Assembly: GCA_020852705.1 (NCBI GenBank)
Contig: JADZAP010000012.1
Coordinates: forward strand, 1 to 64,000
Length of the DNA: 64,000 bases
Origin: Ignavibacteria bacterium
Lineage (GTDB): Bacteria; Bacteroidota; Ignavibacteria; Tepidaquicellales; OLB5
Direction: 5' to 3'
Position numbers and translations under genes: made by a program. The notes below the pieces were generated by a model. It was not told the DNA's origin. It made no database searches and worked only from the letters and a program-made list of their open reading frames with translations. The stretch's first letter is position 1. Every line of letters starts with the position of its first letter. Positions 33,374 to 53,472 of this stretch are shown in pieces.

Positions 33374-34303
33374 ATGAAAAACGATACTAATATACAAAAA
33401 AAAAACAGTTTAGTTAATAAACACAGTCTTTTTAATAAAGATGATTTAATAAATAGTTCTTTTAAATACTGTGAAGAGATTGCAAAAAATCACTATGAAA
33501 ATTTTCCTGTTGCATCACTTTTGCTGCCAAAGGAAAAACGTAAATACATTTATGCAATTTATGCTTATGCAAGGGCAGCAGATGATTTTGCTGATGAAGA
33601 AGGCATATTAGGAGGCAAATCCAAACGCCTTGCCCTGCTTGATGAATGGAATGAAAAATTAAAAGATTGTTACAAGGCAAAGGCTTATGACCCAATTTTT
33701 ATTGCATTAAGTGAAACAGTAAAGAATAACAGTATTCCAATTGAAACTTTAGAAGCATTGCTAAATGCATTTAGGCAGGATGTAGTTAAAAACAGATATG
33801 ATACTTTTGATGAAGTGATTGCTTATTGCAGAAATTCTGCAAACCCGATAGGCAGATTGGTTTTAATGATATTTGGCATTAAAGACCCTCAATATTTTGA
33901 ATATTCTGATCATATCTGCACTGCACTGCAATTAACAAATTTCTGGCAGGATGTTGTAGTTGATTTGAAGAAAAATAGAATCTATCTGCCAAAAGAAGAT
34001 ATAGAAAAATTTGGTTATTCATACACAGAACTTTCATTAAAACAAGTTAACAAAAACTTCATCGATTTAATGAAGTTTGAAGTAACTAGAACTAGAAAAA
34101 TATTTGATAAAGGCAAAAAATTGATTGAACTTACAGCATCGGACAGCAGGAACAAGAAATTATCCAAAGAATTAAAATTAACATGGCTGGGCGGAAATAC
34201 AATTCTTAATAAAATTGAAGCAATAAATTATGATGTTTTAAGCACTAGACCAAAGATCAAAACCGGTGATAAAGTAAAAATATTTTTATACTCAAGATTC
34301 TAA
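33374..34303 (+). CDS. hpnC: Hydroxysqualene/squalene synthase HpnC-like
   Basis: 309 residues. It has the trans-isoprenyl diphosphate synthase (head-to-head) motifs YARAADDFADEEG and LQLTNFWQDVVVDLKKNRIYLP. The wording LTNFWQDV is typical of HpnC. In the HpnCDE route, HpnC turns presqualene diphosphate into hydroxysqualene. The three genes lie in the order C-D-E as in known hopanoid operons. A TACTTTTG -7 box at 33339-33346 lies 28 nt before the ATG. Confidence 0.85.
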   Translation: MKNDTNIQKKNSLVNKHSLFNKDDLINSSFKYCEEIAKNHYENFPVASLLLPKEKRKYIYAIYAYARAADDFADEEGILGGKSKRLALLDEWNEKLKDCYKAKAYDPIFIALSETVKNNSIPIETLEALLNAFRQDVVKNRYDTFDEVIAYCRNSANPIGRLVLMIFGIKDPQYFEYSDHICTALQLTNFWQDVVVDLKKNRIYLPKEDIEKFGYSYTELSLKQVNKNFIDLMKFEVTRTRKIFDKGKKLIELTASDSRNKKLSKELKLTWLGGNTILNKIEAINYDVLSTRPKIKTGDKVKIFLYSRF

Positions 34304-50889: not shown

Positions 50890-52728
50890 CTATTTCTTGC
50901 CTTTATTTTTAATTACAGTTTTTTGCTTCTCCAAAATTGCTTCTTCCTCACCTTCTTTCTTACCTTTTCTTTGTACAAAATACTGCTCAATAATTGAAAG
51001 AAGATTATACATAAAGTAGTACAGGTTCAGACCCGCCGGCAGTGTTGTGAAAAGGAATGTAAGCATTACGGGCATAATATACACCATTGCCATTTGTTTG
51101 GGGTCTTTAACAGTCATTTTCTGCTGAATAAACATTGTAACTCCCATTAACAGTGCAAGCCCTGAGAGATAATCAACTCCAAACAACGGAATTTTAAACG
51201 GAAGATGCATAATAATATCTGGCACAGATAGATCATGAATCCACAAACCAAAATATGCCTGTCTTAATTCAATAGTTGAGTTAAATACGCCAAATAAAGC
51301 ATATAGTATAGGCAGCTGAAGCAGCATAGGAAGACATCCTCCAGCTGGGTTTATTTTTTCTTCCCTGTAAAGTTTCATCAGCATCTGCTGTTGTTTCTGC
51401 GGATCATCCTTATACTTTTCTTTTAAAGCATTCATCTTTGGCTGCAGTTCACCCATTTTCTTCATGGATTTCATTTGATATCTGGTAAAAGGTGTTAATA
51501 TCACTTTCATTATGATACTGAAAATAATAATTACAATTCCCCAATTTGCAATAAAATTGTGCAGAAACAAAAAGAAAGGGAGTATTGCATATTGCGCAAT
51601 TGGTCTTACAATGAAATCAAGAGAAAACCTCATGGTTGACTGAAGATTCATATCATAACTTTTCAATATCTCATAATCAACAGGACCAAGGTAGATATTA
51701 AAACGGTTTTTCTCTAACTTTTCGTTTTTAATCTGCATTTTAAGGGCAATTGAATAATCTTTTTCATGTCCATTATTTGGCAGGTCATTATATGTACCGG
51801 TGATATAAGAACCGTCTGCTTTTTTGCCGTCTGTAATAAGAAAAACCGCAAAATATTTTATTCTGGAGCAAACCCAGCTTGTTTGTCCATTTAGGTCAGA
51901 TTTTATAGGTTCATCTTTCTTAGTTACATCAAGAACCTCAAGTTCATCTCCAATTTCAGAAAATGCATGAGCATGTCCCCCTTCTGCATCACTTCGGTAC
52001 TCAGTAAGTTTTAATGAATTTTCCCATGCAAGCTGATATTCAAAATTACCTATAAATCTATTTGAGTTTTCAAGTCCAATTTCCACATTAAACATATATG
52101 TATCATTTTTGAAAGTATATGTTTTGGTAATTTTTGCTCCGTTAGAATCAACAGGCATTTCATAAGTAATTTTAAATTCATCTCCTCCGCTAACATTTAC
52201 TCTATCCCACGGCTTGTATGTTGAATTAAAATAGAGATCTTTTGTATTTATCAGCTTTCCTTCGGTAGAATTGAAAATCAGATTAAGCTCACCGCCTTTG
52301 TTCAGATAAAGCAGCTGAACAGGAAAACCATCCCATGTTTTAAACCCTTTAACTTCATATTTTATTAAAGCTCCTCCTTTTGTAGAAAATTCAGCATAAT
52401 ATTTATCTGTTTCTACAATCAGAATTTTATCTTCACCTTTTTCAAATTTTCCAAACAATGATCCGTATTTTTCTGAAACTACAGGATTTTTCATGTTTAA
52501 GGTATCATTCCCTGTTTTTTTAGTTGTATCTATGTTCTGCTGGGTGATTGTTTTCTGTGAGTCTTGCTGCTGATTATTTTGCTGAAGCTTTTTTAAACTA
52601 TCTTGTACAAGCTTTTCATTAATTTTTTCATCTTTTTTTGGAGGCGGTGCATTTTTATTCTGAAAATAAAGCCATCCTATAAGTATAACCCCGATTAAAA
52701 TAAAACCAATTATTGAATTTTTATCCAT
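50890..52728 (-). CDS. yidC: Membrane protein insertase YidC
   Basis: 612 residues, long Gram-negative form: N-terminal helix (6-22), a Gln/Lys-rich linker, a large periplasmic domain (about 85-370), and a C-terminal five-helix insertase domain with FTRYQMKSMKKMGELQPKMNALKEKYKDDPQKQQQMLMKLY and GGCLPMLLQLPILYALF. It inserts membrane proteins alone or with Sec. It follows yidD by 2 nt. Confidence 0.95.
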   Translation of the reverse strand: MDKNSIIGFILIGVILIGWLYFQNKNAPPPKKDEKINEKLVQDSLKKLQQNNQQQDSQKTITQQNIDTTKKTGNDTLNMKNPVVSEKYGSLFGKFEKGEDKILIVETDKYYAEFSTKGGALIKYEVKGFKTWDGFPVQLLYLNKGGELNLIFNSTEGKLINTKDLYFNSTYKPWDRVNVSGGDEFKITYEMPVDSNGAKITKTYTFKNDTYMFNVEIGLENSNRFIGNFEYQLAWENSLKLTEYRSDAEGGHAHAFSEIGDELEVLDVTKKDEPIKSDLNGQTSWVCSRIKYFAVFLITDGKKADGSYITGTYNDLPNNGHEKDYSIALKMQIKNEKLEKNRFNIYLGPVDYEILKSYDMNLQSTMRFSLDFIVRPIAQYAILPFFLFLHNFIANWGIVIIIFSIIMKVILTPFTRYQMKSMKKMGELQPKMNALKEKYKDDPQKQQQMLMKLYREEKINPAGGCLPMLLQLPILYALFGVFNSTIELRQAYFGLWIHDLSVPDIIMHLPFKIPLFGVDYLSGLALLMGVTMFIQQKMTVKDPKQMAMVYIMPVMLTFLFTTLPAGLNLYYFMYNLLSIIEQYFVQRKGKKEGEEEAILEKQKTVIKNKGKK

Positions 52729-52730
52729 TT

Positions 52731-52985
52731 TTATATTACACTTTTATCACTTACTGAGTAAAATTTGTTAAAATCATTATTTTTGTATTTCTTCTCAGGA
52801 ACCGGGTCATATCCGCCATGAGAGAAAGGATTGCATTTTAAAATTCTAATTGCAGAAAGATATATACCTTTGAAAAACCCATGCAGCTGCAGTGCTTCAA
52901 TAGTGTACTGGGAACAAGTTGGAGAATATCTGCAAGATGGCGGAAACAAAGGAGATATAAAATATTTATATCCCTTTACTAACAA
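52731..52985 (-). CDS. yidD: Membrane protein insertion efficiency factor YidD
   Basis: 84 residues from TTG 52985. The family core is clear: [24 protein letters not shown] and [12 protein letters not shown]. The frame is open upstream for about 29 more codons, and those read [16 protein letters not shown], which looks like the natural N-terminus. No ATG, GTG or TTG is found there; an ATC stands where ATG would be expected (about 53030). The start is either this ATC (rare or an error) or the TTG. Confidence 0.88.
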
Positions 52986-53059: not shown

Positions 53060-53472
53060 TTAATTATTTTTCTGCGTTACTTTGCTTAATATCTTTATAA
53101 TTAATTCCTGCATATCAGAAGAAATTATGCTAAAATTAATTTCCTGATGATTTTTGTATGCTGTATTAGATAGGGTAAAAAGAATTCTTAATTTCTGCTT
53201 ACTTTGAATTGAAAAATTAACCAGTTCTGTTTTGTGCAGTCTGTATAATTCTCTTAATATTCTTTTTAATCTGTTTCGTTCAGTAGATTTTTTAATTTTT
53301 TTTTTGATATTAAAAAACCGACTTTAACAGGAAAGCCGGTTTTATCATCAGAATAATTTACAAATGAATTTAAGCTACCGGAATCAATTTTAAAAGATGA
53401 TGAAAGAATTTCTTCAAAAACTCCAAAACCCCTGATAATTTCATTTCGTTTTAATGTATAAATCCTGTTCAA
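53060..53472 (-). CDS. rnpA: RNase P protein component, readable only across a frameshift
   Basis: From ATG 53472 the frame reads [19 protein letters not shown] ... [11 protein letters not shown], then goes out of frame at a run of ten A (53296-53305, T on the plus strand) and stops at 53266. With one base added at the run, it continues [18 protein letters not shown] and on to TAA 53062-53060, giving about 136 residues. [11 protein letters not shown] is the RnpA signature RNRxKR. RNase P protein helps the RNA cut tRNA leaders and is essential. Either the assembly lost an A, or slippage on the A run makes the full protein. Confidence 0.85.

Follow-up and report, generated by a model that had tools for sequence, protein, structure and literature searches.

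The gene for the RNase P protein (rnpA) in one family of Ignavibacteria almost certainly carries a real programmed frameshift, at the junction between the residues SKKK and IKK, where a run of exactly ten A (A10) coincides with a change of reading frame. The site lies in the 64,000-nt stretch of DNA analysed here (the window: positions 1 to 64,000 of contig JADZAP010000012.1, assembly GCA_020852705.1), and the identical arrangement is found in all 15 species genomes of the family, which represent three genera and include the window genome. As read from the two frames, full-length RnpA with its RNR motif is predicted to need a net slip of one base (a -1 frame change). The agent of this slip is probably RNA polymerase, adding one A.

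Two reading frames at the rnpA locus

The gene order around rnpA is the usual one, rpmH - rnpA - yidD - yidC, all on the minus strand: rpmH (ribosomal protein L34; 53519-53677) is upstream, the rnpA locus as a whole occupies 53060-53472, and yidD (52731-52985) and yidC (50890-52728) follow downstream. Each of the three neighbours is an open reading frame with homologues in 15 of 15 family genomes. The first part of rnpA (53297-53472) starts with a TTG codon at 53472 and encodes, in frame 0, the N-terminal half of RnpA as far as SKKK; the second part (53060-53296) encodes, in the -1 frame, the C-terminal half, which ends in QKNN before a TAA stop (53062-53060). The RnpA reading switches from one to the other on A10 (53296-53305; sense codons TCA AAA AAA AAA, then (A)TT). 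On the plus strand these positions are exactly ten T and the run is no longer, so that the initial annotation was right to place the shift precisely here.

Left in frame 0, the reading continues past A10 for nine codons (LKNLLNETD) to a TAA at 53268-53266. This tail (53266-53295) corresponds to one of 5-19 codons, without conservation of sequence, in the 15 family genomes. The RNR motif (53270-53278, within ERNRLKR), identified by translation and structure alignment, is encoded only past the shift, in the -1 frame. Unslipped translation is thus predicted to yield a stub of ~60-80 residues without the motif, and since this product would lack it, RnpA production would depend on the slip. The start codon of RnpA is TTG or GTG in every family genome and never ATG (n = 15); it lies 167 nt 5′ of A10 in 14 of 15 species, and in the other (genome G013) the earliest start codon is 170 nt from the run.

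Where it has been studied in bacteria, the RNase P protein is essential. In a profile search against PF00825 (family cut-off 22.3 bits), the joined RnpA of the window scores 50 bits, compared to 12.6 for the first part alone and 32.2 for the second, and it aligns without gaps over the shift to E. coli-type RNase P protein chains (7uo1, 2ljp). The split gene is the sole RnpA match in the window genome, which also has an RNase P RNA gene. These observations bear on the possibility that rnpA is dead or dispensable here, with RNase P working without RnpA or replaced by another enzyme. Frame 0 does stop before the RNR motif, but with the only RnpA match of the genome accompanied by RNase P RNA, no further decay of the frame change in any of the 15 species, and selection acting on both halves (below), this explanation is extremely improbable. 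It is no more credible that the gene has undergone fission, its halves being made as separate proteins that assemble. There are two overlapping open reading frames, as this would suppose, but from the point where the -1 frame opens up to the RN motif, none of the 15 genomes has an ATG, GTG, or TTG in that frame; only ATT/ATC-type codons would remain.

Conservation and selection at the frame-change site

In 15 of 15 family species, rnpA is split at exactly A10, followed by TY (TT or TC) and a second invariant tract of six A (A6; 53288-53293 in the window). A search of 59 relatives with PF00825 found the match partial or broken by a stop in all 14 other genomes of the same genus or family, and rnpA as one open frame, of 105-196 amino acids, in 43 of 43 matches from other families. 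The comparison with close relatives that the initial annotation had called for separates the family from these other families. Among 391 genomes of the class, the A10-TY-A6 site in rnpA is confined to these 15, with no true case in the other 376; two further motif matches are by chance and lack the run. When PF00825 was searched more widely across the class, no further internal stops in rnpA appeared among the matches listed. Compared with the joined RnpA of the window genome, those of the other family members are identical at 33-65% of residues, and the split arrangement is therefore old.

One order-level relative (genome G043, locus L024) has rnpA as an intact gene, which at the corresponding codons reads A11-TA-A6 in frame. 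This A11 site is the natural in-frame equivalent of the family's A10 site: a net gain of one base brings the family sequence to the length seen in intact relatives such as this one.

The initial annotation had regarded an indel in the assembly as the simpler choice. Homopolymers are indeed error-prone, the family genomes are apparently drafts or assembled from metagenomes, and the draft assembly to which the window belongs has 75 contigs. A sequencing or assembly error is nonetheless refuted by the same A10 and frame change in 15 separately assembled species genomes, one of them a two-contig, 100%-complete assembly; the A11 of L024 was assembled in frame, and there is codon-level selection for AAA at the site. 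The probability left to such an error is vanishingly small. Phase variation, in which replication slippage in A10 would switch RnpA ON and OFF, would account for a homopolymer inside a coding region, but all 15 species would have to share one OFF state of identical length, and an essential gene is a poor target; we consider it very unlikely.

The selection on codons is pronounced. The five lysine columns at the junction (KKK-I-KK) are AAA in 75 of 75 cases in the 15 genomes, and the serine before A10 is TCA in all 15. Lysine codons in yidC, yidD, and rpmH of the family genomes, by comparison, are 43-79% AAA and 21-57% AAG, and not one of 51 conserved lysine columns in these neighbour genes keeps a single codon. 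A sliding-window scan of the four genes places the strongest synonymous conservation on the A10 site. At the protein level, six closer species pairs have dN clearly below dS both before the junction (frame 0) and after it (-1 frame); with the second part read in frame 0 instead, dN is mostly at or above dS. Read as RnpA, both halves of the gene evolve under purifying selection.

Polymerase or ribosome as the slipping agent

The initial annotation had also suggested that RNA polymerase slippage might yield some transcripts from which the complete protein could be made. As the best-supported mechanism this proposal stands; as something proven it does not, and -1 ribosomal frameshifting is also viable. 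In the polymerase reading, RNA polymerase would slip on A10, so that a fraction of the mRNAs would have A11 or another length of the same phase, and these would then be translated normally into complete RnpA. In the ribosomal one, the mRNA would keep its A10 and tRNA-Lys would slip back one base on A_AAA_AAA within it or on the A_AAA_AA(G/T) that follows. The latter is possible but the less probable of the two.

Several features are as a ribosomal slip would have them. Direction and phase both fit; the A10 length is fixed modulo 3, as a one-directional -1 slip requires; and heptamers of the X_XXY_YYZ type are present in frame 0, as A_AAA_AAA in A10 and A_AAA_AA(G/T) after it. In six family species the second (A6) site reads A_AAA_AAG, which is the heptamer of E. 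coli dnaX. The slip at A6 would give nearly the same protein, because frame 0 there reads A_AAA_AAT (as in the window) or A_AAA_AAG, and the two invariant tracts could in this way serve as tandem slip sites. The stimulators of -1 frameshifting, usually a 3′ structure or a Shine-Dalgarno-like element, are optional at some sites. Against this, the 60 nt 3′ of A10 have no consensus structure in the 15 sequences, no purine-rich Shine-Dalgarno-like element was seen by eye within 20 nt 5′ of A10, and a hairpin on the 5′ side, such as is found here, does not usually act as a -1 stimulator. The third lysine codon of A10 is never AAG, although A_AAA_AAG is slippery for ribosomes, and the window genome has tRNA-Lys genes for AAA and for AAG alike. 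Sliding of ribosomes on poly-A in E. coli, finally, needed at least 11 A (PMC4363877).

Slippage by RNA polymerase is favoured because a pure A10 is kept where A_AAA_AAG would suffice for ribosomes; because the hairpin is 5′ and not 3′ of A10, as in the Roseiflexus IS630 transposase (below); because no downstream structure is conserved; and because long A runs are avoided, in the window and in the genome. In the window, no A9 run is observed where 11 are expected from a dinucleotide model, and in the window genome there are 11 runs of exactly A10, compared to 45-205 expected, depending on the model. By the argument of PMC1088944, from run avoidance to slipperiness, this suggests that such runs are harmful here, that is, slippery. 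The family genomes contain 2-23 exact A10 runs each, one of which is in every case the rnpA site. No recurrent gene with a frame change was found at the others (63 sites in 13 other genomes, together with those of the window genome, G000; genome G003 was left out): several are in genes and are read straight through, and others are intergenic or in a repeat.

Some of these other sites may be mentioned individually. The window itself has a second exact A10 at 33396-33405, close to the start of a different open reading frame that is read through with no frame change. In the window genome, a gene for a xerC/xerD-like recombinase (L075 ~1501, contig C2:165628) has an in-frame A10 (AAT ATT AAA AAA AAA ATT), which should also be slippery. 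Three family genomes (loci L193, L196, L198, L202, and L236) have several exact A10 that belong to an intergenic repeat, which recurs and has units such as ATGAGAATCATAATGAG. The dnaX gene was considered as a second slippage gene of the family and rejected: it is one open frame, with no run of at least nine seen inside the gene.

The hairpin has 12 bp and a 6-nt loop (53314-53343), and ends 8 nt 5′ of A10. Its arms keep 10-12 of the 12 pairs in 14 of the 15 family genomes and four in the remaining one (G014); in 27 intact relatives, the corresponding positions have a mean of 4.9 pairs and a maximum of nine. It was this arm-specific pairing that discriminated; folding energy was uninformative, intact relatives having similar values over a 60-nt stretch, and a terminator scan did not list the hairpin. 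Most stem changes in the family alignment involve G-U pairs and none is a double compensatory change, so that covariation does not prove the hairpin.

There are also observations that count against parts of the polymerase reading. The downstream A6 is as invariant as A10; of the conserved parts it alone is left unaccounted for by polymerase slippage, and a second ribosomal slip site would explain it. A9 or A12 should be tolerated as well, yet only A10 is seen (15 of 15). The known stem-loop case yields a deletion, whereas rnpA needs a net insertion. For the hairpin in particular, its absence in G014 and the lack of any double compensatory stem change speak against a role. RNA polymerase and the ribosome may both contribute to the slip.

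If the polymerase does slip on A10, the RNA hairpin 5′ of the run might tune how often it does so. The effect would probably be a fixed low ratio of RnpA to L34, YidD, and YidC, the products of the neighbour genes; the simplest role for the slip, together with the weak TTG or GTG start, would be to hold RnpA at a low level compared with L34 and YidC. Regulation of RnpA through the slip is possible; no signal for it is evident. The whole of this, an obligate transcriptional slippage shared by the family, controlled by a hairpin in the nascent RNA, and setting and perhaps regulating the amount of RnpA, is put forward tentatively, as a model in which some part may well prove wrong.

Comparison with known systems and significance

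Release factor 2 (prfB) is made through a +1 programmed ribosomal frameshift at a stop codon, and is autoregulated. The rnpA of this family resembles it in that an essential protein would be made only through a frameshift; it differs in the direction (-1), in the poly-A run at the site, and in the absence of any visible sensor.

Among cases of transcriptional slippage, tssM1 of Citrobacter rodentium, with slippage on A11 resulting in 20-25% full-length protein (PMC4256274), is similar in having poly-A in lysine codons and a genomic frame that is truncated, with slippage needed for the full-length form. In tssM1, however, both forms are needed, and it is a secretion gene that few species have; rnpA, on the other hand, is essential wherever it has been studied in bacteria, its short form is without the RNR motif, and its site is fixed across a family and accompanied, in 14 of the 15 genomes, by a 5′ hairpin. 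The dnaX gene of Thermus thermophilus, with slippage on nine A/T (PMC5009743), is likewise a housekeeping gene with a slippery homopolymer, but there the genomic frame gives the full protein and slippage the short one, the reverse of rnpA. In the Roseiflexus IS630 transposase, as far as it is described in PMC5009743 (citing Penno 2015), transcriptional slippage is stem-loop-mediated and enhanced by a 5′ hairpin. To the extent covered there, that system has an inverted repeat immediately before its slip site, as rnpA does in 14 of the 15 family genomes; the transposase has U5C5 and a one-base deletion, and rnpA, a chromosomal housekeeping gene, has A10 and would have a net gain of one base. Rescue of frameshifted genes by slippage at poly-A runs, as proposed for rnpA, is also known from Buchnera and Blochmannia (PMC5009743). 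In these the sites are scattered over reduced endosymbiont genomes, unlike the one fixed rnpA site in genomes of 2-4 Mb that otherwise avoid such runs. No published report of an rnpA frameshift was found in a literature search.

Annotation pipelines would call this rnpA broken or miss the gene, and the case illustrates that what looks like a homopolymer error in a metagenome assembly can be genuine. With free-living Ignavibacteria of an entire family making RnpA only by a slip, a core enzyme would depend on an obligate frameshift, of which natural examples are rare. If the proposed mechanism is true, an essential housekeeping enzyme encoded on the chromosome would owe its production wholly to slippage by RNA polymerase, and the family would offer a direct test of how polymerase slippage gets fixed, tuned, and used, and of the role of a 5′ hairpin at a homopolymer.
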